Origin: a virus
Strand: one strand, 5' to 3'
IMG/VR virus record: IMGVR_UViG_3300025732_000030
Span: 1 to 64,000 of that record
DNA: 64,000 nucleotides
Shown: piece by piece, positions 32,414 through 51,470 of the stretch
How the letters are laid out: every line of letters starts with the position of its first letter
How positions within the stretch are numbered: the stretch's first letter is position 1
Position numbers and translations under genes: made by a program
The notes under the pieces: generated by a model
Seen by the model: only the letters and a program-made list of their open reading frames with translations
What the model was told of the DNA's origin: nothing
Database searches by the model: none

Positions 32414-35400
32414 ATGCCTGGTATTGAAGATTTTAATGAAAAGTTAACAAAATTAGCAAATGCTAGTTCAAGTAGAATGCTTGAAAATGAAATGCGTTTG
32501 TATAATCCCAATGATCAAATAACTCCATATGCATATAATGCTGGAAAAACAAGTGGCTCTCATTTTAAAAGATATTACGCATATGGTCCTGAAACATTTG
32601 AAAGAATAGGTTTTTCACCATTTCAAAATAATGAAAAAAATTTTAATGAAGGTACTGGAACATATGCTGAATTTAAAAGATCTATTGTGCATGGTTTTGC
32701 ACCATTATTTGCAAGAGGATTTGTATCTGGACCTAAGAGTTTGGGGAGAATGCTTAAAGGAGATTTTAGTGATGACCCAGAAGAAGCAGCAGCATATGCA
32801 GAAGCATCAGCAATTGCATCATCTACTAAAGGTGGTTTAACGGGATTTGGAAGTAATTTATTAGTAAACTTTGGTTATACTGCAGGAATTATAATGGAAG
32901 CAGTTGCTGAAGAAGCTTTAACATTAGGTTTAAGTAGTGAATATACTATCTTCAATGCAGGTAAAAATTTAGTAAGAGGTGTTAAATATGTTGGTCGTGC
33001 ACCAAAGGTTGGTAAAGGAATATTAGCAACAGAAAGTATACTACAAAGAACTAATCAATTACAGTCAACACTTAAAAAATTAGATAATATAACTGATGCA
33101 AGAAACTATTGGAAATCTCTGAAGGTGGATAGATCAATGGGTAATGTAGCTGCAAAGTCAAAAAGTACAGGGAAATCTGTTTTAAATTTTTTTAATCCTA
33201 TTAGCAATACTACAGATGCAATAATTGATGTTGCTAAATCTTCTAAGAATTTTCAGGGTCTAGAAAAAATTTCTAATGCTGCATTCAAAACTGTTGGGGG
33301 TTTATATAGAGATATTAGAAATGTTAATATGGCTTTATCAGAGGGTAGGCTAGAAGCAGGCTTTGTTAGAAAAGATACTTTTGATCAACTATTTGATGAG
33401 TATAGAGAAACACATAATGGAGAAGATCCACCTGATGATCTTCAAGATGAAATGCGTCAAAAAGCAAAAGAAGCTTCAGAAGGAGCTTTGCTTGCAAATA
33501 CTCTTTTAATTTTTGCTACAAACAAAATTGTTTTTGACAATGTTATGTCTCCTAAAAGAGGGATAGCAAGAGTATTCAGCAAAAAAATAGCTGATGTTAA
33601 AAAGAACATGGCCGGGAGAACAGTAAGAGAGTTTACTAAAAAGACACTTAAAACTGGTAAAGAAGTTCTTACACCTAAATTATCTGTAATTAAAAAAGGT
33701 TGGAAAGGTTGGAAAGGTACTGCTCAAGCTATAAAAAAACAAGGATTTCAAAAAACTGTATTAAAAACAATTGGCTATGCTAAGGCAAATATAATGGAGG
33801 GTATCCAAGAATCAATGCAAGATGTAATTGCTAAAACCTCAAAAGATTATTATACAGAATCTTTTTATTCTGAACCTGTTGCTTCTTATTATTATACTGA
33901 AGGTTTTTTAAATAAAAAAAACAAAGAAGACAAATCATTTTGGGATCACTTAGGAGAAGGATTTCAAGCACAAGTTTATGAAACTGATGCAAGAGGAGAA
34001 TTTGTTTTAAAGAAAGGAGAAAAACAATGGAGTGGAAAAGGTTTTGAAACATTTTTATCTGGTTTTGCAATGGGGACAATGGCAGGCCCAGTCAACAAAG
34101 CATTACCATTTATTCAATCTAAGATTGCTAAATATAAAAATAAAGCTCAATATGATGCTCTTAAAGCTAAGCTTGCATCATATAATGAATCAATGGCAAA
34201 ACAAGTTAATGATACTTTTAAAAATGATCCATTAAATATGCTTAATGCAAGATTATATAATCTTGGTGTGCAATCTAAACTTGCTGATCAAATTGCTGAT
34301 CCGGATACAAAAGCAAAACAAGATGCAATTGAAGAAGCTACTGTAAAGCAAATATCTCAAATGATTGAACTGGGTGCAACAGACATTTGGTTGGATCATT
34401 TAGAAAATATTAAAAATCTTACACAAGAAGAGTATGCAGAATATCAGGGGATTACAATGGAACAAGCTGATGGACATACAGAAAAGATAGATCATATCAT
34501 AAATAAAACACAAGACATTCTTAAAAATTATGATAAGGTAAATGAAATGTATCCCAATCCTGTAGACTTAAATGAATACAAGAAGGGTTCAGTAGAATAT
34601 CAAAAGGCCGCTTTATTTTCTAAAGCATGGGATGAGGCTGTAAGAAATGTAATTTTTTATAATGATAGTTATAAAAATACTCTTGATAGAATGCAAAAAG
34701 TTTATCGGGATATGGCATCAAACAAATTAATTGGTAAAGTAGATCCTTTAAGAGTACAAGCATTATTTAATGAAGATGATTTAACTGGAGAAATTGGAAT
34801 GCTTAAAACAGAAATTGAAGCTTTAGAAGGTTCTGAAGATCCAAATTCTAAAAAACAGTTAGTTGCAAGAAAAGATTCTTTAAAAGCTTTAGAAGAATTT
34901 AAAGAAAACTATAATAGTTTTATGGATCACTTCTATAAAACTGCTAGATCTCAAGAAGATGATGAAGTACAAGCTATAGAGTCTCAACTAAGTGACATTG
35001 AAACCCAATTAAAAGGTAAACCAAGAAGAGCTGAAAGAGTAAGATTAGAAAGAGAACAAAAAAGATTAAATACAAGACTATCTCAGTTTGAAAAAAATGA
35101 GGAGAGAACACTTGAGAGACAAGAACTAAAAGATAAAAAAAATAGAATCATTGATCTCAATAATCAGATTGATGAATTAACAAATACAAAAAATAATTTT
35201 TCAGTTCCAGCATATTATGATCAATTTACCACAGCCAGTCAATATCAAGAAAGAGAATCAGAAAGAATAGATAGAAAAATTGCTGATTTAGAGCAAGAAC
35301 GTGATTCAATAAATACTGAAGTAGAGTCCACTATGGATTTTACTAATGAAAAAATGTTAGCTAATCTTGAAGGTTCATTTAAAAAGTATTTGAAAACTCT

Positions 35401-38400
35401 TGCTAATCAAAGCAATGAAACTTTATTAGATAGTAATATGGATCAAGCCTTTGAAATGCTTGTTGATTATTACAGATTAGGTAAAGAAGCTCAAGGTACA
35501 GCAGAGGCCATTAATATTTTGAATGATCCTGCTGGTTTTGTGGAACATGTTGAAAATAATTTTGCTTGGATGTCAGATCTATGGAACAATAGAGAAGACA
35601 TGATACTAAAAAATATAACAGAGCAAACAAAAAGAATTCAGTATAACAACTTGTTAAATATGTTAGCTGCTGAGGGCATCTATGTTGATTTAGAAGAGTT
35701 TGCAAACTGGAAAATGAATGGTGAACTACCTACTGAATTTTATGACTCAGTTAATAAAAGAGTTGTTCCAAAAGGAAGTATATTATATAATCAAGTTGCT
35801 CAAAAATTTATTGAGTTAGACTTTTTAAATAATATGGTGGAAAGTAAAAAATCACCAGAACAAAAACTTGCGGATAGTTTAAAAATGTTAAATTTATTAG
35901 AGCAAGAAGAACTTAATGAGCTTCAAAAATATAATGTAAAAAAAGAAATTGGTAAAATTGATGATAAAGAATTTACAATAGATACTGTTAAAAGTAAATT
36001 AGGGATTGATCAATACCTAGATGCTACATATACAACAGAAGATGGAAAAACTGTAAATATTACTTTTTATAAAGATTCTGATGGAAACATTAAATATACT
36101 GATGCTCAAGGATCAATAGTTGGTAATATATCTATTAAGCTTAGAGATGGAAAAATATTTGCTTATAGAGAAGAGCCAGATCCAGTTGAAGTTGAAGCCA
36201 TCAAAAAAAGATATGATCAACTTAGAGCAGAGGCTGCTGAAGGATCTATTGCAAGTACATCAAATGTAATCTTAGAAGGTGGTGTAGTTTCATTAGATGA
36301 TCTTAATGCAGATACTCCAATTGCTAATATGCCTGAAGAATTAAGAGAACAGCTTAAAGCAGCATTTGAAGATTATAGAGATGACCCAAAAAATGAATAT
36401 TTATTTCCAGAAAACCTTACTGAAGAAGAAATAGAATACAGATTTGTTAAATTTATAAAAAGTGAGTCAGAAGCATTAGAGCTTATTGAAAATTATATTA
36501 AAGAACAAAGGCTTAAAACTTCAACTTCTGAGGGAGAAGTTTCTGCTCCAATGATTACTTTATCAACTGGTAAAAAAATATCTGCAGAGAATGCTACTGA
36601 TAAACAAATTCAATCTGTATTACAACGCTATAATATGGAAATTAATGCTATAGAGAATAATAAAAATAAATCTATAGATGATGAAGTAAGGCTAAAAGAA
36701 TTAAAAGAAAAGTATTCACTTTTAGAATCTTATATTAAAAGTAGAATTAATAAAGCTCTTACTCCGGAAATGCAGAATGCTCTTGAGTTAATTAAACAAT
36801 TACAGAAAGAACAAGAAAGAATAGAAGCATTACCAACAGGATATAAGATTGGTATGAAGATTCTTAGAAGGGTAACAAATGTTATTCAAAAATTCTTGGG
36901 TAAAAAATATGAATATAAATCTAAACCAGAAATTGAAGCTGCCTATAATTTAACAATAGGGGAAGGTCAATCAGTTAAAGACTTTATTGATATTTTAAAA
37001 GCAAGTAAGCTTCCAGGATTCAATGAGAAATCTTATGAAGCTATAGAGGCATTCATGAATGAATATAGTGATACTGATTTAAAAGGTATTGATCCTGCAT
37101 TATTAGCTGCAAGACGTGGAGATAGAAAAGCTCAGGAAGAATTTGAAAAGTATGGATTAGAGTGGGAACAAACAACCACTTATAGATTTGTAGGGCAATC
37201 AGAAGTAGATGTGCTATTATCTGGAAAAAATGTAGATAGCAAAAGGGGAATGGCAGATGCTGGTATTGATGTAACCACATCCCCAAAAGTTACAAGTGCT
37301 GCTACCAATGAATATAGAGTTACGTTCAAAGAGAGTTTTGATGTGAATAATGGTTTAGGTAAAGTAAGGGAAAAAAATAAAGAATTAGGAGATCATCATC
37401 TTGAAAAAGGTAGGGGTTATTCTTTAAATGATGTTGTTAAAATAGAAAGACTAGATGAAAATGGAAATGTTATAGAAACTATATACAGCCCTAATATAGA
37501 TAGTTTAAAAGAAGCAACAATTAACTTTATCACAGAACAAGCAACATATCAATGGGGTAGAGATAGAGGTAATGTAATAGATAGACTAACTAAAAAATAT
37601 TTTAGTGGTGAAAAAGTTCAACCAGATCTTAATGAAATTTCACAAGAAGCATTTGATAGTTTGTTTGGAAGAAATGGTATTTATAAAACTATAAAAGATT
37701 ATATAGATACAAATGATTTAATTGTTGTAGCAAATGGTCTTATAGTATATGATGAGGAAGCAAATGTAGCTGGGGAAATAGATTTACTTCTTGTTGATAG
37801 AAAAGGTAATTTTCAGATTATAGATATTAAAACTGGTGAAACAGCCAAGTGGAATGGGTATAATAATCCTAAAAGTGATAACTATGAAAAACAAATTGAG
37901 AATACTTATCAGCAAATGGTATATGCTAGACTATTGAAAAATATGTTTGGTATAGATGCTAAGATAAATATACTACCTATTGAAACTACTGTAGATCCTA
38001 CAACAAGTAAAATACTTACTGCAAAAAGACCAGGCTCTCCACTGCTATTGAAGGCAGATAAAATTTTATTTCCATTAGAGCCAACCCAAGAAATGTATGA
38101 TAAACTTGATGCTGAAATACCTGTAACAGAACCTAAATTTAAAGGAACAGTTCCATCTAGTAATGTTGAAGATATACTTGATGATCCTAATCTTAATGAT
38201 GTTGAAAATTCAGACTATGAAAATGAAAATCCAGAGGAAGAAGATGATGATGATCAATTAAACAGTGTTAAAGAATATAATAAATTAAAATCTAAAATTG
38301 AAAAAGCAGACTATGATCAGTTGCAACTTCTTAAAGTAGATCTTGCAATGAACATTGTAAAATTTTCCCCTGCACAGTTTACAGAATTAAATAAATTAAT

Positions 38401-38842
38401 TGAAGAAAAAGAAGCAGCTTTAAAAGTACAGGATGAAACTGAAGATGGAGAAGTAATTATTTACAATATAGGTGATCAAGTTTACTCAGAAAATGATATC
38501 TTTACAAATACGGGTAGGAAATTTTTGAGTGCTAATCAAACAGCAGTTATATCAGAGATTTCTGGAGATAAAATTACTATTAAACCAGAAGGTAAAAGAA
38601 CTAAAATGGAAATGAGTATAGAAGAATTTAAAAAGAAATTTAAACCTGCAAGCACATTGTTTAGTGGAGAAGAAACAGATGGTCCTGTAGTTGACGAGAG
38701 TGAAGGAGTTACTCAAGAATCTACAGATACTGTTTCAGATTTATTGGATGGTCAAGATGCTGCTTCTAGACAAAAAGCTTTAGAAGATCAAGCTATAGTG
38801 GAAAATACAAGAGATAATTTATTAGATGACTTAGATTGTTAA
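32414..38842 (+). CDS. Giant ejection protein with coiled coil, possible ART-like fold and PD-(D/E)XK nuclease domain
   Basis: The 2,142-residue product has N-terminal hydrophobic or amphipathic helices (SNLLVNFGYTAGIIMEAVAE near residue 160; GALLANTLLIFATNKIVF near 360; FLSGFAMGTMAGPV near 550). A long coiled coil spans about 850-980. Residues 1590-1640 start YRFVGQSEVDVLLSGK and read like an ADP-ribosyltransferase fold, with low certainty. Residues 1785-1840 hold GEIDLLL (D1790), IIDIKTG (D1804, K1806) and QQMVY (Q1833, Y1837), a complete PD-(D/E)XK signature of the Cas4/RecB type. The C-terminus is acidic. It probably crosses the cell envelope during ejection and brings a nuclease with it. 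Confidence 0.75.
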   Translation: MPGIEDFNEKLTKLANASSSRMLENEMRLYNPNDQITPYAYNAGKTSGSHFKRYYAYGPETFERIGFSPFQNNEKNFNEGTGTYAEFKRSIVHGFAPLFARGFVSGPKSLGRMLKGDFSDDPEEAAAYAEASAIASSTKGGLTGFGSNLLVNFGYTAGIIMEAVAEEALTLGLSSEYTIFNAGKNLVRGVKYVGRAPKVGKGILATESILQRTNQLQSTLKKLDNITDARNYWKSLKVDRSMGNVAAKSKSTGKSVLNFFNPISNTTDAIIDVAKSSKNFQGLEKISNAAFKTVGGLYRDIRNVNMALSEGRLEAGFVRKDTFDQLFDEYRETHNGEDPPDDLQDEMRQKAKEASEGALLANTLLIFATNKIVFDNVMSPKRGIARVFSKKIADVKKNMAGRTVREFTKKTLKTGKEVLTPKLSVIKKGWKGWKGTAQAIKKQGFQKTVLKTIGYAKANIMEGIQESMQDVIAKTSKDYYTESFYSEPVASYYYTEGFLNKKNKEDKSFWDHLGEGFQAQVYETDARGEFVLKKGEKQWSGKGFETFLSGFAMGTMAGPVNKALPFIQSKIAKYKNKAQYDALKAKLASYNESMAKQVNDTFKNDPLNMLNARLYNLGVQSKLADQIADPDTKAKQDAIEEATVKQISQMIELGATDIWLDHLENIKNLTQEEYAEYQGITMEQADGHTEKIDHIINKTQDILKNYDKVNEMYPNPVDLNEYKKGSVEYQKAALFSKAWDEAVRNVIFYNDSYKNTLDRMQKVYRDMASNKLIGKVDPLRVQALFNEDDLTGEIGMLKTEIEALEGSEDPNSKKQLVARKDSLKALEEFKENYNSFMDHFYKTARSQEDDEVQAIESQLSDIETQLKGKPRRAERVRLEREQKRLNTRLSQFEKNEERTLERQELKDKKNRIIDLNNQIDELTNTKNNFSVPAYYDQFTTASQYQERESERIDRKIADLEQERDSINTEVESTMDFTNEKMLANLEGSFKKYLKTLANQSNETLLDSNMDQAFEMLVDYYRLGKEAQGTAEAINILNDPAGFVEHVENNFAWMSDLWNNREDMILKNITEQTKRIQYNNLLNMLAAEGIYVDLEEFANWKMNGELPTEFYDSVNKRVVPKGSILYNQVAQKFIELDFLNNMVESKKSPEQKLADSLKMLNLLEQEELNELQKYNVKKEIGKIDDKEFTIDTVKSKLGIDQYLDATYTTEDGKTVNITFYKDSDGNIKYTDAQGSIVGNISIKLRDGKIFAYREEPDPVEVEAIKKRYDQLRAEAAEGSIASTSNVILEGGVVSLDDLNADTPIANMPEELREQLKAAFEDYRDDPKNEYLFPENLTEEEIEYRFVKFIKSESEALELIENYIKEQRLKTSTSEGEVSAPMITLSTGKKISAENATDKQIQSVLQRYNMEINAIENNKNKSIDDEVRLKELKEKYSLLESYIKSRINKALTPEMQNALELIKQLQKEQERIEALPTGYKIGMKILRRVTNVIQKFLGKKYEYKSKPEIEAAYNLTIGEGQSVKDFIDILKASKLPGFNEKSYEAIEAFMNEYSDTDLKGIDPALLAARRGDRKAQEEFEKYGLEWEQTTTYRFVGQSEVDVLLSGKNVDSKRGMADAGIDVTTSPKVTSAATNEYRVTFKESFDVNNGLGKVREKNKELGDHHLEKGRGYSLNDVVKIERLDENGNVIETIYSPNIDSLKEATINFITEQATYQWGRDRGNVIDRLTKKYFSGEKVQPDLNEISQEAFDSLFGRNGIYKTIKDYIDTNDLIVVANGLIVYDEEANVAGEIDLLLVDRKGNFQIIDIKTGETAKWNGYNNPKSDNYEKQIENTYQQMVYARLLKNMFGIDAKINILPIETTVDPTTSKILTAKRPGSPLLLKADKILFPLEPTQEMYDKLDAEIPVTEPKFKGTVPSSNVEDILDDPNLNDVENSDYENENPEEEDDDDQLNSVKEYNKLKSKIEKADYDQLQLLKVDLAMNIVKFSPAQFTELNKLIEEKEAALKVQDETEDGEVIIYNIGDQVYSENDIFTNTGRKFLSANQTAVISEISGDKITIKPEGKRTKMEMSIEEFKKKFKPASTLFSGEETDGPVVDESEGVTQESTDTVSDLLDGQDAASRQKALEDQAIVENTRDNLLDDLDC

Positions 38843-38846
38843 GAAG

Positions 38847-41800
38847 ATGAAAATAGTTTGTGCATTATCACCAAAACAAGTAGAGAACTTATATAAAGAT
38901 ATATATAAAAACATGTTGAATTCATTAGAAGCTGATAAAGCTTTTAATGCTAATGACTACATGAAAACTTTATTTACACAAATTGCTGAGAAAAAAGATG
39001 TTCCAACAGCAATGAAATTTTTACAGCAAGTGCCTAGCATTATGAGAGCTGTTGGTGTAAAATCACAGTTTGATAATTTAGATATTTCTTTAGACGCCCT
39101 TAAGCCATTGGTTACAGATTTTAAAAATGAAAAAGATGGTTTCAAGAATGTACTTAACTATTTCAAGCCAGAGATGTCTGACAAAGACAAACTGGAATTA
39201 CTTGTAGCAAATCAATTTATCTCAAGCTTACCTACTGAAATAGAAGATCCTAAAGAGATAAAAGATCCTTTTAGATTTAAACCATTTAGTTGGTTAAGTA
39301 CTACATTTCAACAATTAATACAACTTAACCCACTTAATAAATTAAAGTTATTAAGTGAAAAACCAGATGCTAATAAAAATAGGATTTACAACACTATAGA
39401 CAAAATACAAGCTGCTATTAGTGCTGAGCAAGCTTTAGTAACTGATGGTACATTAACGGTAGCTGGTAAAGTATTAAAACTAAAACCTGTTAGACTATTA
39501 GATCTTTATGATACAAACCAAGCAGATATTGATAACACTACTGCTCAAGATGTAATAAGAACTAAATCTATTAAAAATAGACCTGCGGGAGTTGAAACAC
39601 AAGATACAATTGCTTTAGTTTTATCAGATGAAGATGGTAATTATTACCACTTTACAGAGGACGGAAATTTTTCTACTGAAGAAGAAGGAGGAAAAATAGT
39701 TTATCAGTTTATGAGAAATGTAAACAAAGATAATACTACTGGAGAATATGTTGCAGTAAATCAATATGGGTATGATGATCAGATTCAAACACCAGAAATG
39801 ATTGCAGAAAAATTAGAAATTACTGTAGAAAAAGCTAAAGAACTTCAACAAGAAGAATTAAAAAACTTATACGAAATAAAACAAGCTGTTGTAAACAATC
39901 AGCAAAATCCTCTTTTAAATGTGGTTGAATTAAGTGCGGGTGTTCCAGAAAGTTTAGCACAAAAGAAAATATCATTAAAAAATTTAAGATCTCTTCCATT
40001 TGTAAATAATGCAACATTTAAAACAATAACACCAGTAATTGAAAAAGGATCAGATGTATCTGCAGTTATTACATTAAATGGTACTATATATCCGGTGGAT
40101 AAACCAGATTTATCTGAAGTTTTAATACAAAAAATAACATCAGTTCTTACAAATCCTAAACTATCTAATAAACAAAAGTATGACTTTGTAAATCAATTTC
40201 TTTCTGATAAAGCTTCAATGAAAGCAAGAAGACATACGTTACTTTATAATCCTGGAACAGATGCCCTCACTTTTCAATATACTGAAAAAACAAATGCTGA
40301 TGGAACTGGTGGAACATATACATTACTCAATGACCAATTAAATAATAAATATGATTTAGTATATGATGTTTTAAGATATGCAAAAGGTGATAGTAGAAAG
40401 GGTAAACCTTTTCCTGCTAAAATGACTTATAATATTGATGTCCTATCTAGAAATGGATATCAAGATTATAATATAGAAACAGGAGAAATTAGTGATGAGT
40501 ATACACCTTATATTCCATTATTAGAAACACTAGATGCCGCAGATATTAAAATATCTGAAAGCACAGATCCTGGATTTTATAATACATATATTAGATTTAG
40601 TATTCCTTCAGATATTTCTATAGATGCAACTGAAGAGCCAAAAGTGAGATCACAATATGTAGGTAAATTTATTTACTCAACTCCGGGATCTGGAAAAACT
40701 ACTTTAGCAAATACAGATGAGAACATTATAGATACTGATGAGTTAATTGTAGAAGAAATGAATAAAAGGCATCCTGACTTTAAACAGGAAGCTAATGAAC
40801 CCATACAAGAGTTTATTTTAAGATATGTTATAAAATATGACCATAAAGCTGAAATAAACAAAATAGTTTTAAATCAAGTTAAAGAACTAACTGCTAGTGG
40901 TAAAACTGTTCTTACAGGTACAATGGCATTCATTAAAGATGTTGATGTTGTATTTAGAATGAATCCTACAAGCAGTAGAGCAATTGAAAGATTTGGTTCA
41001 GTTGAGAAAGCAAAAGATTTTGCTAAAAAAGAAAAAGATGAAGCTAATAAAGCAAAGAAAAAATCAATTGAAACAAAAGGAATAGAACAAAGTATAATGA
41101 CATCTTTTGTTTCTGAACCTGTTACGCAAACACCAAAAGAAGAAAGAGATAATATCATAGAACCTGAAAACACACCAAAACCAGAAGAAGGAGGTCTTGG
41201 TAGTTTGCTTGATGATGAAATGTACAGATCTGGTAAAAATTTAGATTTAGAAAATATTACTTCTGAAGATATAAAAAATGCTGAGACATGGTGGAATAAC
41301 TCACCACTGTCTAAGTTTATTGATTTCAAAACAATGGTTAACATTGTTAACTCTGATGTTTATGCAAAGTTTATTGCATATGGAGCTGTGTTAAATAATA
41401 AATATGGTGAGATTCAAATTGGTCAAAGAACTAGTATAGTAGATGTATATCATGAAGCATGGCACGGATTTACTCAGTTATTCTTAACTCCAACTGAAAG
41501 AAAAGCTTTATATGATGAAGTTGCAAAACAAGAAGGAAGCTTTACACTATTAAATGAAACCACTGTTAAATTTAGTGACGCAACATATGGACAGCTTGAA
41601 GAATATCTTGCAGAAGAATTTAGAACTTATGCAAAAGAACAAGGTGTTAAAGCTAATTCACCTAAAAGAAATAGTATATTTAGAAAAATTCTAAACTTCT
41701 TAAAAAATCTATTTAAATCTAAAAATACTAAAGATAAACTCTTTAATGAGTTATACTTAGCTGGAAAAAATAAAAAGAATAGTCAAAAGTTCTTAAATAA

Positions 41801-44800
41801 ATATTCTCCGCTTGTTAATACTTTCAGCTTTAAAGAACTTAACAGAGGTATAGAAAATGTAGTTGAACCTACAATTGATGCTTTAGATAAACAAGATAGT
41901 AATCTTGTATCAAAAAGTATTGACTCTTTCTTTTCATTAAGAGCAGATAAAAATTCTGAAGAGACAGGTACTAAAGAGGCAACTATAAGAATCTTTACAA
42001 ATGAAAAAACAAAAGAAAAAGTATATGCTGAAGCTAAAGTAGATTTTCAAAATAAACTTGATACGGCTAAAGAAGAATTAGAAAAAATACAAGATGACCC
42101 CACTAAGGCATTAGAAATTGAAAAGCTTCAAAATAAAATAAGAATATTTGAAACTGCATTAAAAAATTGGGGTGATAAAAAGTCAGGAGTAATTGCTTAT
42201 CATAATGAGAATAGTGATTATAAAATCATCAACAAAAAGTTTAAAGAGATAAAAGATGAAGAGGAAGATGATACCACTACACAATCTCAAACTGCTAATA
42301 GTAAAACAGTAGAAAATAGTTCGCAAGGTGAAACTTTGGGAATAAAAGATGATACTCAAACTAAATCTTTATTAGATTTAGCAAGTTCAGAAACTATTGT
42401 TTTATTATCTAGTTTACATAAAATAGAAAATGGCAAAACTGTGCTAAATGAATTAGGTTATCCAGAACTTGCAGATTTTGCAACTACTTGGAATAATACT
42501 ATCAGAGCTCTTAATGGAGAAAAAAATCCATCTAAAATGCTTGAAAATATTAGAACTTCTGCACAAACAATATATCCTGAATTTAAACAATTATTAAGAA
42601 AGCTTCCGGGATATACAATTGAAAATGGTAAGATTGTTATCAATGAAAAAAATAGATTTGAAGTAAAAACATTAAGTGCATTTTGGCAAGATTTTCAAAA
42701 AACAAGAGTAACTTATTTACAAACAACAATATTTGATAATAATATTGCTGAAGTTACTAAAGCTTCAATTGAAACAATGAGCTTAATGCGTAAGTTTCAA
42801 GCTAAGTTTAAAAGTGATCTTGAAAATAAATTCATTGGAAGATCAGCAGAAAATGTTGCATTCTTAAAAGTTGCAGAAGTTGTAGCAGAATTTGGTAAAG
42901 ATGGAAAATTAGATTCTGATAGAGCTTATGAATTTGCAAGAGCAATAGGTTTATATTTAGATGATTTATCAATCATTAAAAATGAACTTAATCTAAATCA
43001 GAAAGCTAAGCAGATGTATGGTCTCATATATATCTATAGGGCAATGTATGATATAGATAATGCAATGAAGAATCCTAAAACAACTCAGAAAACAGTAACT
43101 GAAATAAATGAGTTTTTATTAGATCCAATTGGTAAACTAACTTCTGGGTTTAGTGCAGGGACTATTGCTGAAAAAGAAGTAAGACAAAAAAATGCTATAG
43201 ACAGAATTCTTGGTTTACAAGCTAAATATGGTTTTGATTCTGCAAACTTTGCAGTATTAAATGCAGAAAAAAATCTTGTATTTGAACATATAGATGATCA
43301 CACTATAAGTTATATAACTTATGCTCTGAATAAAATGGATAATTTATCAGAGGCATGGACACCAGGTAGTGAATTTGAATACATGAGTTATTTAAATCCA
43401 TTAATTAATTCATTTACAACAAGACTTGGTATTATTAATACACTATTTGATAAGAATGATACAGAAGATGGTGTATACAACTGGGCTAAAAGATCTGGAA
43501 AATCCTTACAATTATTTATCAATTCAGGCACTCAGGTAGAAGCAATTGATGATGGAACAAATACAACTTCATTAGATGCTAGAGGTAAGTTCTTACAAGA
43601 ATTACACAGCATGCTTAAAGGAGGAATGATAGAATTTATGAGACATGCATCTAAGTCATCATCTTTTGGTGCTAGAATAGACGGAGAAGGTGGTATTCTA
43701 GGTGGTGTTGGTAAAGGCACAGATACAAGATTATGGGTTGATATAGACAAATTTGCAGTAGGTAATGCATATGAATATGTTGTAAAAAATCATATGATAC
43801 CATATATTGCTGGTGAGTTAGAAAGAATAAATAAATTTAAAGCTAACAAAGAATTATTTAAAACATATAAAGGATACAACAGAGTTCTTGCGGATGGCAC
43901 TATGGCCGGTGAAAACTTTACTGCATTTGATAATGTTTTAACTAAAGACACAAAAGCAAAAATCTTAGAGGCAGTAACAGATCCTAATATTAGATTTGAA
44001 GATTATATAAAAACTAATCCTAAATTATATAAGGAAATCTTAGAAGAAATTACTAAATATTTTACTGATCAGACTAAAGATTTGCAAAACTATTATAATG
44101 AAGCTAAGTATTTAAGCCCAGATCTTTTAGATAAGCTTTCTGTATTTAATCTTGATCAAGAGAAAGTTGAAGAAGTTTTAATGTCTGCATATGCAGTAAA
44201 CTCTTGGGTACAAAACTTTGAAACTGCTACTTTATTCTATGGTGATATTGTACAATACAACCATGAAAAAGAAGAAATGCATAAGAGAAACTCAGGTGCA
44301 ACTTCTGGTGGATTAAAGATAAGAACAGACCAATCAATAAGACGTTATCTAACTGAATTAAATGGTAAATTATCTTATGCACAAGCTGAAGGATTAGAAA
44401 CTTTAGCATATACAGGAACTTATAATTCTGCTATTATTCAAGATATTAAAAGAGAATCTGTTTATTCTCCAATAATTGAAAGAGAACTTAGAAAAGATTA
44501 TACTGAAAGACTTAAAGGAAAAGTTCCAGCTGATAAATTATCAGAGGAAGTAGAGATGCGTGTGGCTCAGGATCTTAAGCCTTATGCAAAAATGGAAGAA
44601 GCGGATGGTCAAGGTTGGATTACAATTGATGCATATAGAAATCTTAAAATGGCATCTGATCAATGGAGTGATTTACAGGAAGAGTTATTTAAAAAAATAA
44701 TAAATAAACAACCTGTTAAATATTCTGACATTATTGAATTCTTTCCTGTATATAAAGTTCAAAACTTTGGACATTTAGCTAATACGGCACTACCCGTAAT

Positions 44801-47800
44801 GGCAATGCATAAGTTTGCATTAGCTCCCCTTATTCCACCAATGATAAAGAATTCTGATTTAGAATCTTTACATAAACAGATGATTAAGAATAACATTCAG
44901 TATGTAACTTTTCCAACAGGTTCTAAAGTTGGTAGTGTAACCTCTCAAGTTAATGAAAAAGGAGAAGCAGTTGCTGATAAAATTTATGATGACAAAGATC
45001 AAAAATCATTAAAGACAAATATTAAGTTCACACCAAATAAAGTTTATTTAGAATATCTTAAGGATGTAACTAAAGTTCCTGTGTCTTATAAAAACAAAAC
45101 AGTATTTGCTACTCAGTTAAGAAAACTTATCTTATCTAACCTATATAGAAATGGTGAATTAACTGTTAAAAATCAAGTTTTAATTAAAGACTATGAAGAT
45201 GCAGTAGATGCCTACGGTGAGTTCTTAAAAATGGAATTACTTAATGAGATAGGCTATACATTTGAAGATGGTAAATACATTGGAAACTTTAAAAACTTCT
45301 TAGAACTTGTTCAAAGAGAATTGGGTAGAAAGAATATTCCAGAACACCATATTGAGTTTGTTAATATGAATCCAGATAATTCTTTGAAAACAGATTTATC
45401 TTTCCATTTAAGAGCAGATGAGATTGAAAAAATTATTGTTTCATTAATTGAAAAAAGATTAGTAAGACAAAAAATTAAAGGTGAAGCATTAGTACAAGTT
45501 TCTAGTGCAATGACAAATGGTATTTGGGATAACCAAATTCAATTTGATAAAGCTGATATAGAGCAAGTAAGAAAGTTCATGGGAACTAATAACTTACCTT
45601 TCTATAACTATAATAAGGATAGAACATCAGCAATGAAAGTTGCTATTGCTCTTCAAGGAGACTTTGTTAATCTTTTAAACTTAGATTACAAAGGAGAAAA
45701 AATTGGTACAAGAGAAAGACTGAATCAGGCTATCAAAGATGATGAATGGTTAAATGCAAATGATGGAGCTAACAGAAAAGCAATTACTATGATTGCTGTT
45801 AGGATTCCTGTGCAAGGTCTTAACTCTATGGAATACATGGAAGTATATGAGTTCTTAGATGAGGCTGCTGGTCCAATTATTATACCACCATCAGAAATAG
45901 TTGCTAAGTCAGGAGCTGACTTTGACGTTGATAAACTTACTACATTTATGCCATCATTGGATAAATCTGGAAAGTTTGTAGAATCAGCAATATCTAATGA
46001 AAGACTTCAAAATCTTCTTAACCAAAATAAAGATACAGAAGAAGGAAAACAAATGAATGCTAGATTACTAAGCACTCAAAAGGCAGCTTTAGAGAATAAA
46101 CTAATTACTAGCATATCTAACATACTCAGTTTACCAGAAAATTATGCATCACTGGTAAGACCAAATGCCACTTACTTATTAAAAGATGCTATAGCAGATA
46201 AAATAGCAGATAAGGTAACAGACTATAATAGATTTGATAATTATCATGGTGAAGAAACAAGATTAAATGAAAAAGGTGAAAAAGCTATCAGCCCTACTAG
46301 AGTATTAGAACCACTATATAATTTGCACAAACATGAGGCAAACATGATTGGTAAAAAAGTATTGGGTATTGTGGCTATTTATAATGCTCTACACCCTGTT
46401 CTAAATAGTTTGGGTGCATCAATGCCTAAAACATATAGGTATAAAAAATCAAAAGAAAGAAAATCTAGAATATTTTTACCGGTTAATAAAACAAAGGATG
46501 GTAGAATATCACTATCAGAAACTACTACAGTGGATGGAGATTTAATCTCAGAACTATATTCACAATTAATGAATGGTTCAGTAGATGTTGAAAAAGATGC
46601 TTGGATATTTTTTATTCAAGGTAATGAAGAGCTAATTGGTTTAATGGCTATGCTACTTAAATCCGGAGTTCCAAGAGAACATGCCATTAAGTTTCTATCA
46701 CAACCATTAGTTAGAGAGTATGCAAAAGAACAAAGACTTTTAAAAAGTTCTTATTCAGATCTTATTACTGATAATAGCGGTATACCAAAAACTCAATTAA
46801 CTGTAAATTATTACGGTGAACCAATAGAGATAAAAATTCCAGATAAAGAAATTGCAGCAGCTAGAGTACTCTCAAGATTTGGTGTTGATAAACCAATGAG
46901 ATTTGTAAAGGGTAATGCAGATCAAGCTTCATTAGATGCATTTATAAAGAAAGGAAATATATTAAACAAAGAAGGAGTATTTGATCTTAAATTACTAGAT
47001 GCTATATTAGAAGATCCAAATAATCCTGCACGCAAAGATCAGCAAATTGCTACATTATTACATGTAATGGAGTTAGAAAAACAATTCTCTGGATATCAAG
47101 AGCTAATGAGATTATCTAATCCAGATACTTCAATATCTAAAACTTTACAGCAAGTATTAAATAGAAATGTACTACTTGATGAAATTGAAAATGATTCAAG
47201 GGTAGAAAGTAAAATAGTAAACGCTTTAAGAAAGGAATCTATTTTATCTACATTTTTTGATAATCAAATTGTTCAAGATTTAGTTGAACCAGTATTTCCA
47301 TTAAGAAATTCAAAAGATATAAGTAATATTATTATTGGCCTAATAAAGAACAATAGTTTTCAGATAACAAAAAGATTTGGTGATACTGAAAAATTTATTT
47401 CAGAGATAAAAAATAACATGGTTAATTCTGTGTTCCAAAACTATATGATGGGTTATGTGCAATCTGAAAAAGACTTATTAAATATTCCGTCAGATCTTTT
47501 AGCTAAATACTTTACAAAAGATGTGTTCTTCCAAAATACAGGATATTCATTTGCAGAAGATATTTTTGATATTATAAATCAACATCCTGAACTAAAAGAT
47601 AAATATAGTTTATTATCACAGTTATCTATTCCAGAAGTTAAGGATGGTCAAAAGATTCTTACTTTAAATAACTCTAGATTATTAAGCAAAGGAAATATAG
47701 CTGAGCAATATTATCAAAATATTGTTGCTCTAGCTGATCCTAATGTTTCTAAGGTAGATGACCCAGTACAGAATAAATATATCAGTGACATGTTCCGTGT

Positions 47801-50800
47801 ACTCCCACTTATGGCCATATACCAAAATGGAGTGGGATACAGTAGATTTGGCTTTAATGAAATCTTGCCATTTGAGGATTATGTTACAATCATGAATAAT
47901 GCCGCAGTAGATTTTAATAATCAAAGTTTTGAGAATAAACAACTATACATGGATAGAGTATTTAGTATAAGTATGAATCCTAAAAATAGAATCTTTAAAA
48001 ACTTTGTGTCAGCTGCATTTGCATCTACTATTCCAACATTTGAAAAGAAAAACAGATTTACAGTTATTCCACAATCAGGAGTAAAAGATGCTAAAGCTGT
48101 TGTAAAATCTAGTATCTCTACACAGTTTATTGGTTTTGGAGAAGGTATAGTTGGTAAAGATGGTAAACGCAGTAGCACACAAATATACAGAGAGCAAGTT
48201 GGTAATTTAGCAAATACTGGAAAATATAGCAGTACAGATGTAATCTTTGTATCTGTTCCTGGACTAAGAGGTGATGCAGCAATTACCAAAAGAGAACAAG
48301 ATAAAACAATCAAAGAAGCAATTAAAGCTATAGAAGCTGAAGCAACTATTCTTGTAGATAATAAAGCTTATACTTTTGATTCTAAAAATACTTACAACAC
48401 CGGAGAAAAAAGATTGTTTCAAAATCTTGAAGCCAAAGGTTATAACTATTCTGAGATTACAATTGATGGTGTAAAAATAGGAACATGGAGTAAATCTAGA
48501 ACTACTCAAGCTCCTATAAGTACTGGAGTAGAAATTAGTTCTAATGCTAAAGGTCTTGCAGCTGCCCTTACTAATCCTACAGAGTTAGCTAAATCTAAAG
48601 GTAATCTCACCCAATCTTATCCAATAGAATTTAATGGTAAAACTTATAAAGATGTTGAAGCTGCATATCAAGCATTAAAAGATAAATCTGAGTCTATAAC
48701 AAAACCTACTAAAGAAAATAGTAAGAACTATAAATTAATGGTAGATTTAATAAAAGCCAAGTTACAACAGCATTCAAGATTAGTTTCAGAAATAACTAAA
48801 CAAGGTGGTTCTACTTGGGTTTTATCATCTACTCATCAACCTACTAATGCAAATACCGTATGGGAAACAGGAGGAAAAAATTGGTTTATTGAAGCTCTTA
48901 ACGATGCTTACTTATCTACTCAACCTACTACAGCTCCTACTGTTATAACTGAAATTAAACCAGAAGATATAACTTTTAAATCAAATAGATTAGAAACATT
49001 TGAAAGACAGGGAGACCTTGAATCAGTAAAAGGTTATGGATTAATTATAAAAGGTCAACCTAATGTAGATTTATTTACATTTAAAGATGATTCAGAATGG
49101 GTCATCATTGATAATAAGTCTAAATTACTAATACCAATTAGAGGAGGAATTTCTACTAAACGTGATATAGCGAAATTACTAAGCAATGATTTAACTTTTC
49201 ATATATCAAAAGAAAGGAATAGAAAATTATTAGAAGGAATTGGTTTTAATTTTACTCAAGAACAAAAACCAGGTGATCAATTAGATTTATTTAACCAACG
49301 TACTATAAATCCAAATCAAAAGTTTGATAAAGTACTTGCTAAAAAAATACAAGATAAACTTGAAAAACTATATCCTGAGATTAAATTAAACATTAGCAAT
49401 ACTCCAGTTTGGGAGCAAGGTGATAATGTACTTAATCAAGAGCAATATAATAATCAAGTAAACTATAGGATTAAAACAGTTGATATTTTACTTACACCAA
49501 AAGCTGATCAAGTATTTGCTAAGGGTATTAAAAATAAATGGACACTGGATAAAATCTTAACAGAACTTCAGATACCTAAAAATCAAAAAGGACTTATAGA
49601 AAGAGTAATAGAAACAATGCCATACTTTGAGGGTATACCTTTTAACGCTCAACTTGCATATGCTATTGCTTCTACTTATAACTATACTATTGAGATTAAT
49701 ACTTCTAAAGATAAAATTGAGGATGCTTTCGGCAATGTTTGGGTTGATAAATATCCTAATAAAAAAATTGGAGATTATATTACTATTGATAATAAACAAT
49801 GGAAAATAACAGGTACAAGATTTGAAGATGATAGTTGGGGGGATTCGGGTTTAGAACAAAGAGAATCTTTTATTGTAGGTTCAGAAGGAGAAAACACTCA
49901 ATATTACTCTAATCTAACAGTTCCAGGTGGAACTAACTATACTGAACAAGAAGTAACAACACCGGGTGTTGTTCCTAATATTAAAGGGCATGCTCAGTTT
50001 GCTACAGATAAAGGTATAGGTTGGTTTAGGAGTGATGAAAGGACTAATAGTTTAAAGCAATTTAATGAGTTTGAAATAGGAGATACTTGGTATGCTCAAG
50101 GTAGCATCAACATGTATGGTAGAGAATACTATGGTAAAATAGTTGGTAATAATGAAGGAGTAGAAATTTCAAAAGAAGAATTTGAAAAAGCTAAGCAAGA
50201 ATTTATTAGTAGTAATCCTTCTTATACAGATAATACTAAAACTCGTAGAATACTAGAAGTACAATCTGATTTGTTTCAGAAAGGTAGAGATAAATATTTT
50301 CTATATGAAAAAGAAGGTAAACAAACTGTTTTAGGTACTCAAATAATTGATAGTTCTGAAAACCAATTTCTTCAACTCCTCAACAAAGACAATAACTGGG
50401 TAACATTCTTTGTTAAATCTATTATTCAAGATAGTGCTAAGAAAGGATATGAGAAAGTTTTATTTCCAAGTGGTAATACTGCTAGTAAAGTTGAAGGTCA
50501 TACTACTTTAGAAGAGTTTAAGAAGCAAAAAGAAGATAGGATTAAAGAACTTGAAAAAGATGAAAATATTTATCACCTTGCATTAATTTTAGATAAATCT
50601 GATAGCGGTATTTTAGATTCTTTTCCTACAAAAGAAGAAGCTTTAATCGCAATTAATAGAAATAACAAAGAAATACAAGAATTGGATTCTAGTAGTGAAT
50701 TAACCTATGAACTTAGAGAAAAGAATTTAAACTTAAATGAAATAAATCAACTTAAACAAGAACTTGAAAGAATAGAAGGTCCAGAAGGTTTTGGTGCTTT

Positions 50801-51470
50801 AAAACCTATTTATAATTTCTATGAAAATGTAGTGGCTAATGTTCTTAAAAAACAAGGTTATACACCTACACAAGTTACAGATGAGTATGGTAATACTTGG
50901 AATGAGGTAATAATTAACCAAGCTAGAGATTTACAAAATGTATTGTTGCAAAAAAATGAAGCAGATAAAATTATAGGTCAAGCTAATATTAAAGCTATGA
51001 CAGTATTAATTGATGCTGTAAATCAAAGACAAGATACATTACCACATGAGTATGCTCACCATTATATTGCTTGGTTTAGAAATACTCCTATTGTTCAAGA
51101 AGGCATTAAAAGATTTGGTAGTGAAGAAGCATTAGTACAAGCAATTGGAGAACAAGTTGTAAAACAAAAAGGAAATGCCTATAATTGGTGGAAAAAGTTT
51201 ACTAACTTTATCTTAAATCTATTGTCTAATAAACAAGTGTTACAAGTATTAACTGATAGTTTCTTAAATAGAACAAACTTAAATGAAGTTACCTATAATG
51301 AAGAAATGGAAAGTCAGGAAATAGAAACTGAAACAACACAAGAAAGACAAGAAAAAATTGATACTTTAAATGAACTAGAATTTAAAAATTGGTTCACAAA
51401 TGAAGCAACTAAAAATCCAGATTTAGATATCTTAGATGCTCTAGATTATTATATGAAATGTAAAAGATAA
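38847..51470 (+). CDS. Giant virion RNA polymerase polyprotein (crAss-like vRNAP)
   Basis: The 4,207-residue product carries DFDVD at 2358-2362 in the context PPSEIVAKSGADFDVDKLT, preceded by RIPVQGLNSMEYMEVYEFL. This is the catalytic region of the crAss-like single-chain RNA polymerase known from phi14:2 gp66. Other parts are a P-loop TPGSGKTT (612-619), zincin HEAWH (869-873), a glycine-poor Rossmann-like region (about 3090-3215), a NADAR-like domain (about 3235-3355, VEAAYQALK), and a block ILEVQSDLFQKGRDK to DEYGNTWNEV (about 3798-4020). A second zincin HEYAHH lies at 4067-4072. It probably travels into the host to transcribe early genes, and may be cut into separate parts. Confidence 0.85.
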   Translation: MKIVCALSPKQVENLYKDIYKNMLNSLEADKAFNANDYMKTLFTQIAEKKDVPTAMKFLQQVPSIMRAVGVKSQFDNLDISLDALKPLVTDFKNEKDGFKNVLNYFKPEMSDKDKLELLVANQFISSLPTEIEDPKEIKDPFRFKPFSWLSTTFQQLIQLNPLNKLKLLSEKPDANKNRIYNTIDKIQAAISAEQALVTDGTLTVAGKVLKLKPVRLLDLYDTNQADIDNTTAQDVIRTKSIKNRPAGVETQDTIALVLSDEDGNYYHFTEDGNFSTEEEGGKIVYQFMRNVNKDNTTGEYVAVNQYGYDDQIQTPEMIAEKLEITVEKAKELQQEELKNLYEIKQAVVNNQQNPLLNVVELSAGVPESLAQKKISLKNLRSLPFVNNATFKTITPVIEKGSDVSAVITLNGTIYPVDKPDLSEVLIQKITSVLTNPKLSNKQKYDFVNQFLSDKASMKARRHTLLYNPGTDALTFQYTEKTNADGTGGTYTLLNDQLNNKYDLVYDVLRYAKGDSRKGKPFPAKMTYNIDVLSRNGYQDYNIETGEISDEYTPYIPLLETLDAADIKISESTDPGFYNTYIRFSIPSDISIDATEEPKVRSQYVGKFIYSTPGSGKTTLANTDENIIDTDELIVEEMNKRHPDFKQEANEPIQEFILRYVIKYDHKAEINKIVLNQVKELTASGKTVLTGTMAFIKDVDVVFRMNPTSSRAIERFGSVEKAKDFAKKEKDEANKAKKKSIETKGIEQSIMTSFVSEPVTQTPKEERDNIIEPENTPKPEEGGLGSLLDDEMYRSGKNLDLENITSEDIKNAETWWNNSPLSKFIDFKTMVNIVNSDVYAKFIAYGAVLNNKYGEIQIGQRTSIVDVYHEAWHGFTQLFLTPTERKALYDEVAKQEGSFTLLNETTVKFSDATYGQLEEYLAEEFRTYAKEQGVKANSPKRNSIFRKILNFLKNLFKSKNTKDKLFNELYLAGKNKKNSQKFLNKYSPLVNTFSFKELNRGIENVVEPTIDALDKQDSNLVSKSIDSFFSLRADKNSEETGTKEATIRIFTNEKTKEKVYAEAKVDFQNKLDTAKEELEKIQDDPTKALEIEKLQNKIRIFETALKNWGDKKSGVIAYHNENSDYKIINKKFKEIKDEEEDDTTTQSQTANSKTVENSSQGETLGIKDDTQTKSLLDLASSETIVLLSSLHKIENGKTVLNELGYPELADFATTWNNTIRALNGEKNPSKMLENIRTSAQTIYPEFKQLLRKLPGYTIENGKIVINEKNRFEVKTLSAFWQDFQKTRVTYLQTTIFDNNIAEVTKASIETMSLMRKFQAKFKSDLENKFIGRSAENVAFLKVAEVVAEFGKDGKLDSDRAYEFARAIGLYLDDLSIIKNELNLNQKAKQMYGLIYIYRAMYDIDNAMKNPKTTQKTVTEINEFLLDPIGKLTSGFSAGTIAEKEVRQKNAIDRILGLQAKYGFDSANFAVLNAEKNLVFEHIDDHTISYITYALNKMDNLSEAWTPGSEFEYMSYLNPLINSFTTRLGIINTLFDKNDTEDGVYNWAKRSGKSLQLFINSGTQVEAIDDGTNTTSLDARGKFLQELHSMLKGGMIEFMRHASKSSSFGARIDGEGGILGGVGKGTDTRLWVDIDKFAVGNAYEYVVKNHMIPYIAGELERINKFKANKELFKTYKGYNRVLADGTMAGENFTAFDNVLTKDTKAKILEAVTDPNIRFEDYIKTNPKLYKEILEEITKYFTDQTKDLQNYYNEAKYLSPDLLDKLSVFNLDQEKVEEVLMSAYAVNSWVQNFETATLFYGDIVQYNHEKEEMHKRNSGATSGGLKIRTDQSIRRYLTELNGKLSYAQAEGLETLAYTGTYNSAIIQDIKRESVYSPIIERELRKDYTERLKGKVPADKLSEEVEMRVAQDLKPYAKMEEADGQGWITIDAYRNLKMASDQWSDLQEELFKKIINKQPVKYSDIIEFFPVYKVQNFGHLANTALPVMAMHKFALAPLIPPMIKNSDLESLHKQMIKNNIQYVTFPTGSKVGSVTSQVNEKGEAVADKIYDDKDQKSLKTNIKFTPNKVYLEYLKDVTKVPVSYKNKTVFATQLRKLILSNLYRNGELTVKNQVLIKDYEDAVDAYGEFLKMELLNEIGYTFEDGKYIGNFKNFLELVQRELGRKNIPEHHIEFVNMNPDNSLKTDLSFHLRADEIEKIIVSLIEKRLVRQKIKGEALVQVSSAMTNGIWDNQIQFDKADIEQVRKFMGTNNLPFYNYNKDRTSAMKVAIALQGDFVNLLNLDYKGEKIGTRERLNQAIKDDEWLNANDGANRKAITMIAVRIPVQGLNSMEYMEVYEFLDEAAGPIIIPPSEIVAKSGADFDVDKLTTFMPSLDKSGKFVESAISNERLQNLLNQNKDTEEGKQMNARLLSTQKAALENKLITSISNILSLPENYASLVRPNATYLLKDAIADKIADKVTDYNRFDNYHGEETRLNEKGEKAISPTRVLEPLYNLHKHEANMIGKKVLGIVAIYNALHPVLNSLGASMPKTYRYKKSKERKSRIFLPVNKTKDGRISLSETTTVDGDLISELYSQLMNGSVDVEKDAWIFFIQGNEELIGLMAMLLKSGVPREHAIKFLSQPLVREYAKEQRLLKSSYSDLITDNSGIPKTQLTVNYYGEPIEIKIPDKEIAAARVLSRFGVDKPMRFVKGNADQASLDAFIKKGNILNKEGVFDLKLLDAILEDPNNPARKDQQIATLLHVMELEKQFSGYQELMRLSNPDTSISKTLQQVLNRNVLLDEIENDSRVESKIVNALRKESILSTFFDNQIVQDLVEPVFPLRNSKDISNIIIGLIKNNSFQITKRFGDTEKFISEIKNNMVNSVFQNYMMGYVQSEKDLLNIPSDLLAKYFTKDVFFQNTGYSFAEDIFDIINQHPELKDKYSLLSQLSIPEVKDGQKILTLNNSRLLSKGNIAEQYYQNIVALADPNVSKVDDPVQNKYISDMFRVLPLMAIYQNGVGYSRFGFNEILPFEDYVTIMNNAAVDFNNQSFENKQLYMDRVFSISMNPKNRIFKNFVSAAFASTIPTFEKKNRFTVIPQSGVKDAKAVVKSSISTQFIGFGEGIVGKDGKRSSTQIYREQVGNLANTGKYSSTDVIFVSVPGLRGDAAITKREQDKTIKEAIKAIEAEATILVDNKAYTFDSKNTYNTGEKRLFQNLEAKGYNYSEITIDGVKIGTWSKSRTTQAPISTGVEISSNAKGLAAALTNPTELAKSKGNLTQSYPIEFNGKTYKDVEAAYQALKDKSESITKPTKENSKNYKLMVDLIKAKLQQHSRLVSEITKQGGSTWVLSSTHQPTNANTVWETGGKNWFIEALNDAYLSTQPTTAPTVITEIKPEDITFKSNRLETFERQGDLESVKGYGLIIKGQPNVDLFTFKDDSEWVIIDNKSKLLIPIRGGISTKRDIAKLLSNDLTFHISKERNRKLLEGIGFNFTQEQKPGDQLDLFNQRTINPNQKFDKVLAKKIQDKLEKLYPEIKLNISNTPVWEQGDNVLNQEQYNNQVNYRIKTVDILLTPKADQVFAKGIKNKWTLDKILTELQIPKNQKGLIERVIETMPYFEGIPFNAQLAYAIASTYNYTIEINTSKDKIEDAFGNVWVDKYPNKKIGDYITIDNKQWKITGTRFEDDSWGDSGLEQRESFIVGSEGENTQYYSNLTVPGGTNYTEQEVTTPGVVPNIKGHAQFATDKGIGWFRSDERTNSLKQFNEFEIGDTWYAQGSINMYGREYYGKIVGNNEGVEISKEEFEKAKQEFISSNPSYTDNTKTRRILEVQSDLFQKGRDKYFLYEKEGKQTVLGTQIIDSSENQFLQLLNKDNNWVTFFVKSIIQDSAKKGYEKVLFPSGNTASKVEGHTTLEEFKKQKEDRIKELEKDENIYHLALILDKSDSGILDSFPTKEEALIAINRNNKEIQELDSSSELTYELREKNLNLNEINQLKQELERIEGPEGFGALKPIYNFYENVVANVLKKQGYTPTQVTDEYGNTWNEVIINQARDLQNVLLQKNEADKIIGQANIKAMTVLIDAVNQRQDTLPHEYAHHYIAWFRNTPIVQEGIKRFGSEEALVQAIGEQVVKQKGNAYNWWKKFTNFILNLLSNKQVLQVLTDSFLNRTNLNEVTYNEEMESQEIETETTQERQEKIDTLNELEFKNWFTNEATKNPDLDILDALDYYMKCKR

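Follow-up and report, generated by a model that had tools for sequence, protein, structure and literature searches.

The question raised by this locus is what a domain resembling the NADAR enzymes of ADP-ribose metabolism does inside a giant protein related to the RNA polymerases of crAss-like phages. We analysed the first 64 kb (the window) of the 78.5-kb IMG/VR virus record IMGVR_UViG_3300025732_000030, where an initial annotation had proposed a NADAR-like domain of a virion protein at 48550-48915. Our preferred interpretation, to which we assign a probability of about 0.6, is that a compact NADAR domain is a module of a packaged and injected crAss-like polymerase, that it most likely hydrolyses an N-glycosidic ADP-ribose bond, or a related bond, as a counter-defence, and that such cassettes are swapped at linkers. 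The domain lies as follows.

48528-48914, plus strand: compact NADAR domain, residues 3228-3356, supported by alignment, AlphaFold2 model, structure match and hhalign.

All the motifs quoted in the initial annotation were found in frame in one open reading frame (ORF) of 4207 codons. The domain it described is real, with boundaries slightly short: the conserved unit is 48528-48914, because the conserved block begins at VEISSNAKGLAAALTNPT. Relatives were found in viruses (26 in one scan and 40 loci in a profile scan) and in three bacterial genomes, and 24 aligned compact NADARs, with identity down to 41%, have 14 invariant columns. Single-sequence scans of Pfam, NCBIfam, PHROG and the PDB failed to recognise the domain, so that profiles and structure were needed. 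Likewise, the window's record has no PF08719 match above the gathering cut-off, and the bacterial relatives reach E values of only 0.065 and 0.11. We therefore used a reference set of 19 NADARs, 18 of them taken from whole genomes with the PF08719 model, plus E. coli YbiA. Searches of viral contigs were of little use for this set, as YbiA found one relative and T4 gp30.3 found near-identical T4-type copies only.

Alignment of the compact family to the reference set with hhalign gave a probability of 97.1%, and an unrelated control alignment gave 0.1%. As a yardstick, the reference NADARs against the T4 gp30.3-type proteins, which are NADARs according to the literature, scored 97.3%. In a profile search of PDB sequences YbiA came top at E 0.01, which is weak taken alone. 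The AlphaFold2 model of the domain (predicted local distance difference test, pLDDT, 97.3) aligned in VIA-align to 8bau, a NADAR-ADP-ribose complex, with Z 9.7 (113 residues, 2.7 Å) and to YbiA with Z 9.2 (107 residues), the next entry scoring 2.9; Foldseek also placed YbiA first, but at E 0.085. Profile and model overlay thus agree with the proposed identity, and the two matches, with the 0.1% control, rule out chance resemblance. A Pfam match to Gp-FAR-1 (E 0.0039) and matches to fatty-acid-binding proteins in the PDB were set aside as short helical matches. The window domain firmly has the fold and the homology of a NADAR, and it belongs to a compact subfamily of the NADAR superfamily that lies outside PF08719 as curated.

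The protein that carries the domain has the following features.

38847-51470, plus strand: giant ORF of 4207 residues, by sequence homology the counterpart of the Crassvirales virion RNA polymerase; its C-terminal region is variable.
41451-41465, plus strand: HEAWH at residue 869, a putative zincin-type metallopeptidase site recognised by motif only.
45918-45932, plus strand: DFDVD (DxDxD) RNA polymerase catalytic motif at residue 2358, within the stretch that matches crAss-like phages.
51045-51059, plus strand: HEYAH(H) at residue 4067, near the C-terminus, a second zincin-type motif, by motif only.

The stretch around DFDVD matched 93 records of a collection of phage isolates at 21-29% identity, with E down to 1e-20, and all 93 look crAss-like by organism name and host; among them are phages of Bacteroides and two Cellulophaga baltica #14 phages. 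A phmmer search of the polymerase region against the PDB gave no match. The RNA polymerase-associated proteins gp47, gp49 and gp50 of crAss001 have been found in the virion by mass spectrometry (PMC10172136), and the RNA polymerase of phi14:2 enters the cell by injection and transcribes the early genes (PMC7886860). The assignment of the giant protein to the virion is well supported, since its ORF shares homology with the virion RNA polymerase of Crassvirales and the crAss001 counterparts are virion cargo; by analogy with crAss001 and phi14:2, the window polymerase would be packaged. The protein also has the composition of a polyvalent protein, combining polymerase and peptidase motifs with effector-like domains (the domains recognised by homology, the peptidases by motif only).

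We compared the locus with those of related phages, one of which has a natural empty site.

48513-49266, plus strand: segment that comprises the NADAR and the following domain and is missing from the near-identical phage L074 (genome comparison).

Phage L074 and the window are collinear as far as 48512, with 89.7% nucleotide identity, and again from 49267, with 95.5%; the gap between the two stretches is in frame. The domain after the NADAR (48942-49266, ITFKSNRLETFERQGDLESVKGYGLIIKGQ...), which is lost with it in L074, has no Pfam match. Another phage, L075 (~88% identical to the window), stays collinear with it as far as 48498; beyond that point come an A1S_2505 domain (NF049995, E 1.7e-15) and, over the Pfam cut-off, a canonical NADAR (PF08719, E 2.7e-11). 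In other phages the polymerases are only 22-38% identical to that of the window or cannot be aligned, yet their NADARs share 58-90% identity with the window's (43-48% for the three most distant). In these same phages the DNA similarity begins at or within 3-31 bases of 48525 and stops around 48900-48936, delimiting a cassette of ~400 bp. In L032 the cassette, at 87% nucleotide identity, is the only DNA in common with the window in 20 kb. Its third-codon identity to the window (0.75) is near that of the polymerase of the sister phage L074 (0.80). Slow evolution alone is thus disfavoured as the source of the high cassette identity, and the simplest reading of these sequences would be recent horizontal exchange. 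The empty site in L074, the replacement in L075 and the cassette-limited similarity between divergent polymerases together show that the compact NADAR is exchangeable, a cassette within the polymerase's variable region.

Since gain, loss and swapping are frequent, the NADAR could be a neutral or scaffold passenger, shuffled by recombination with little selection on its activity. Against this, identities between the window and L032 NADARs at the three codon positions are 0.89, 0.98 and 0.75, which indicates purifying selection on the protein, and the catalytic residues are invariant over 41-82% identity. We consider a passenger role highly improbable.

How the cassettes move is suggested by the DNA at their borders. 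We scanned viral contigs for exact copies of a 21-bp linker, ACWCAACCATCTACTAGTGTT, which encodes TQPSTSV, and found 50 sites in 43 contigs (L120-L162). At every one of the 50 the reading frame is the one that gives TQPSTSV, and the sites lie within the open frames of giant ORFs, at domain junctions. Clustering of their flanks gives 26 groups on the left and 21 on the right, joined in 41 left/right combinations; the sites come partly from near-identical phages, and 44 are distinct by 30-bp flanks. An RNA polymerase core is present in the same ORF as the linker in 20 of the 43 contigs, many of which are truncated pieces. Within one locus (L039), four TQPST-type linkers agree in 20-21 of 21 bases. 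As a control for circularity, the TQPSTSV peptide pattern was sought in loci that had not been picked by linker DNA. All eight sites found were identical to the linker at 20-21 of 21 bases, although the peptide has 18,432 possible codings, and DNA conservation falls sharply outside the repeat. Both observations disfavour an explanation of the linker at the protein level.

In the window itself, the NADAR is bounded by related sequences.

48501-48527, plus strand: left linker TTQAPISTG, a degenerate version of TQPSTSV (ACTACTCAAGCT...).
48915-48941, plus strand: right linker STQPTTAPT, also degenerate (TCTACTCAACCTACTACAGCTCCTACT; it begins TCTACTCAACCTACT... at 48915).

The pattern ACWCAACCATCTACTAGTGTT was not found in the window at up to 3 mismatches. 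As the window linkers are degenerate only, linker-driven exchange is seen in the group and would extend to the window copy by inference. ART-PolyVal cassettes and cassettes for a zeta-toxin-like P-loop kinase (L161 12407-13015, L162 13016-14005, L144 2530-3312) have in common a lead-in of ~30 residues, KEGVSELFESNPELA, after the linker, so the unit of swapping may be smaller than a domain. We regard it as an even call whether the group runs a combinatorial cassette system in the injected polymerase, in which homologous recombination at ACWCAACCATCTACTAGTGTT would shuffle effector modules from phage to phage and from one giant virion protein to another, leaving each phage with a pre-loaded counter-defence set. 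The pool of such modules, of ~120-330 residues, would comprise compact and canonical NADARs, A1S_2505, SLOG, ASCH, AlkB, DUF7831, ART-PolyVal and the zeta-toxin-like kinase.

We then considered the proteins and modules with which the NADAR is combined. It is encoded in one ORF with an RNA polymerase core at 27 of the 40 viral loci (E 1e-4), which are not 27 independent events, as many of the 40 are near-copies or truncated contigs. In most loci the NADAR lies C-terminal of the core. The fusion suggests another possibility, namely that the module serves the fused polymerase in cis, cleaning up its template or transcript by removing ADP-ribose from guanines of the incoming DNA or the nascent RNA. 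NADARs act on guanosine in both DNA and RNA (PMC11543638, PMC11833690), and a cyanobacterial protein of plasmid type (G527, ~2180 residues; L169 2150-8692), encoded beside a relaxase (PF03432), also joins a compact NADAR to a DFDGD motif and to the conserved domain that precedes the NADAR in the window. Such a role in cis is nevertheless unlikely, given that the position of the NADAR varies and that L074 has lost it while otherwise unchanged. It lies before the core in L039, L040 and L065, on a 434-residue protein in L066, and alone in L063 and L064; in L055 it is carried not by the polymerase but by a homologue of the giant protein that neighbours the polymerase in the window (32414-38842).

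The modules found beside the NADAR cassette include A1S_2505, SLOG types, ASCH, an AlkB-type 2-oxoglutarate oxygenase and DUF7831. Matches over curated cut-offs in at least one representative were obtained for cpYpsA, DUF7831, AlkB, ASCH, A1S_2505 and ART-PolyVal; the SLOG and DUF4326-like labels of several cassettes are a reading by eye, and for the 'DUF4326-like' cassette Pfam gave no confirmation. SLOG domains have been tied to ADP-ribose and NAD networks (PMC9503650). The presence of ART-PolyVal cassettes in the linker-joined set, and in the NADAR-bearing ORFs of L052 and L061 only, brings up self-protection, in which the NADAR would reverse modification by ADP-ribosyltransferases of the same virus group. 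Most NADAR ORFs, however, show no such transferase, and the window's own record, which is perhaps incomplete, gave no match to ART-PolyVal or DarT, so that we find self-protection very unlikely.

The residues that bear on activity are the following.

48657-48680, plus strand: E3271-x6-K3278, matching in alignments the catalytic Glu/Lys pair of NADARs (role from PMC11543638).
48834-48836, plus strand: H3330, invariant in 24 relatives and a candidate for the third catalytic position.

The pocket motif VE..YQA..K, on which the initial annotation had staked its prediction, is present. In domain numbering, E44-x6-K51 and H103 are kept in 24 of 24 sequences; E44 and K51 align to E48 and K55 of YbiA, while at the position of H103 the hhalign alignment is gapped. 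In the E. coli C7 NADAR, E88 and K95 are essential, and the third residue is Asp, Glu or, among phage NADARs, His (Schuller et al., PMC11543638). Since His occupies this position in the phage gp30.3-type NADARs (PMC11543638, PMC11125620), H103, or H3330 in the full protein, may be its equivalent. All NADARs tested, T4 gp30.3 included, hydrolyse guanosine-ADP-ribose (PMC11125620). This activity, the invariant Glu, Lys and His, the cassette neighbours and the canonical NADAR that L075 carries in the corresponding region are our reasons for favouring an injected counter-defence role.

Several observations weigh against that role. A segment of ~20 residues that holds the ADP-ribose contacts R79, W89 and R93 of 8bau is absent from the compact family, so the canonical ADP-ribose site cannot be assumed; W89 is invariant in 19 of 19 reference NADARs. 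The positions of D130, G146 and R153, invariant in the reference set, are substituted as well. With these losses and changes, the domain may act on something other than ADP-ribose, or may bind without catalysis. T4 gp30.3 is active in vitro yet gave no rescue of cells from DarT1 (PMC11125620), and an active enzyme is therefore not necessarily an anti-DarT one. Finally, several neighbouring cassettes (AlkB, ASCH, the kinase) are not ADP-ribose enzymes, and the neighbourhood alone therefore does not fix function. The altered pocket would suit a binding or sensing module, which would bind an ADP-ribose-like ligand or NAD-capped RNA and not hydrolyse it, as a sponge or for targeting. We judge this quite unlikely, because E-x6-K and the His are invariant in 24 of 24 relatives, as catalysis predicts and unlike a decayed site.

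The region that precedes the NADAR had been suggested to be SLOG-like, and we examined it as a separate domain.

48057-48494, plus strand: conserved 'SSTxxY' domain, separate from the NADAR and possibly SLOG-like.

The domain has the pattern FIGxG..SST..Y...AN...Y..D..fvS, which is also found in L027 (6022-6432) and L028 (5992-6396), and it stands alone beside nrdAB in the Vibrio phages Kuja and SUMAE. Its AlphaFold2 model has a pLDDT of 93, and a fold search with the window's domain gave no confident match (best VIA-align Z 5.1, to unrelated folds), with no SLOG among the best 50 entries. Two relatives, and relatives only, have a GNxxGTDQLV-type stretch (GNAAGTDQLV) that is reminiscent of SLOG. 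The window's own domain is possibly SLOG-like.

Compact NADARs also occur outside viruses. In Variovorax and in an Agitococcus metagenome-assembled genome (L072, L073) a stand-alone copy has in its vicinity a SLOG-type gene (matches to PF18306 under the cut-off, at E 4e-5 and 8e-5) and a DSP-type phosphatase (weak matches). In Tychonema (L071), where the NADAR likewise stands alone, the gene after it looks SLOG-like by eye and has no Pfam match. Wider sampling of two phyla found compact NADARs in 1 of 398 and 4 of 292 genomes, query genomes counted. In three cyanobacteria (G472, G527 and G678) the domain is part of a protein of ~2200 residues, and the DFDGD protein of G527 may be a polyvalent protein of RNA-polymerase type that belongs to a conjugative element. 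On the capsid side of the window, identification of genes by PHROG and tblastn was poor. A 549-residue ORF (8842-10491) between head-type genes of this phage, whose polymerase is recognisably crAss-like, had no match in the phage collection or in PHROGs.

We propose the following scheme for the preferred counter-defence role. The giant polymerase protein would be packaged and would enter the cell together with the DNA. Once inside, its NADAR module would most likely hydrolyse the N-glycosidic bond of ADP-ribose or of a related ribosyl group, whether this is attached to phage DNA or RNA or belongs to a small NAD-derived signal, and an ADP-ribosylation- or NAD-based defence would then fail ahead of phage gene expression. 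Cassettes would be gained, lost and swapped via recombination at short, nearly identical linker DNA. If this is correct, a polymerase-borne NADAR acts ahead of any phage gene expression and meets such defences in advance. Because the window and L074 form a natural pair that differs in the cassette, and a canonical NADAR takes its place in L075, the question is open to direct testing. The common linker DNA offers a concrete mechanism for domain acquisition by giant virion proteins, and could serve as a tag for collecting further effector modules.

Phage NADARs have been described before, and so have giant polyvalent proteins. In the open-licence literature (subscription papers and preprints lay outside the search) we found no report of a NADAR in a crAss-like virion polymerase, of the compact subfamily, or of DNA-conserved linkers that join shuffled effector modules. 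Compared with YbiA (2b3w), the P. nicotianae NADAR (8bau), the DarT1-linked NADARs and PF08719, the window domain has the same fold, an LSN-like motif (LTN), E-x6-K, and a conserved W and GxN near the C-terminus. It differs from these in being ~20 residues shorter between K51 and M71 and in falling under the Pfam cut-off. The LSN...E..LQ..K block of T4 gp30.3 (PF08010) aligns with the window domain (hhalign 76.7%, N-terminal third only); gp30.3, however, is a separate gene product, whereas the window domain is a cassette within a giant polymerase. Phage NADAR, SLOG and Macro domains have been proposed to counter NAD- and ADP-ribose-based immunity, some of them packaged in the head, with the phage versions typically stand-alone (PMC9503650); those of the window group are serial modules of a virion polymerase.

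With the polyvalent proteins (Iyer et al. 2017, PMC5512222) the window protein shares giant size, zincin motifs, many effector-like domains and expected injection, and ART-PolyVal (PF18760), known from polyvalent proteins (PMC5512222), is among the cassettes of the window's relatives. The text of PMC5512222 does not mention NADAR, SLOG, crAss or linkers, and cassettes with identical linker DNA are not described there. A further parallel is the Crassvirales virion RNA polymerase of Cellulophaga phage phi14:2 and crAss001 (gp47/gp49/gp50). The two are homologous in the DxDxD region, both are large and multidomain, and the window ORF sits, like its counterparts, in a block of giant ORFs. Unlike the phi14:2 and crAss001 polymerases, the 4207-residue protein of the window has an exchangeable cassette region that carries a NADAR and other effector-like modules.
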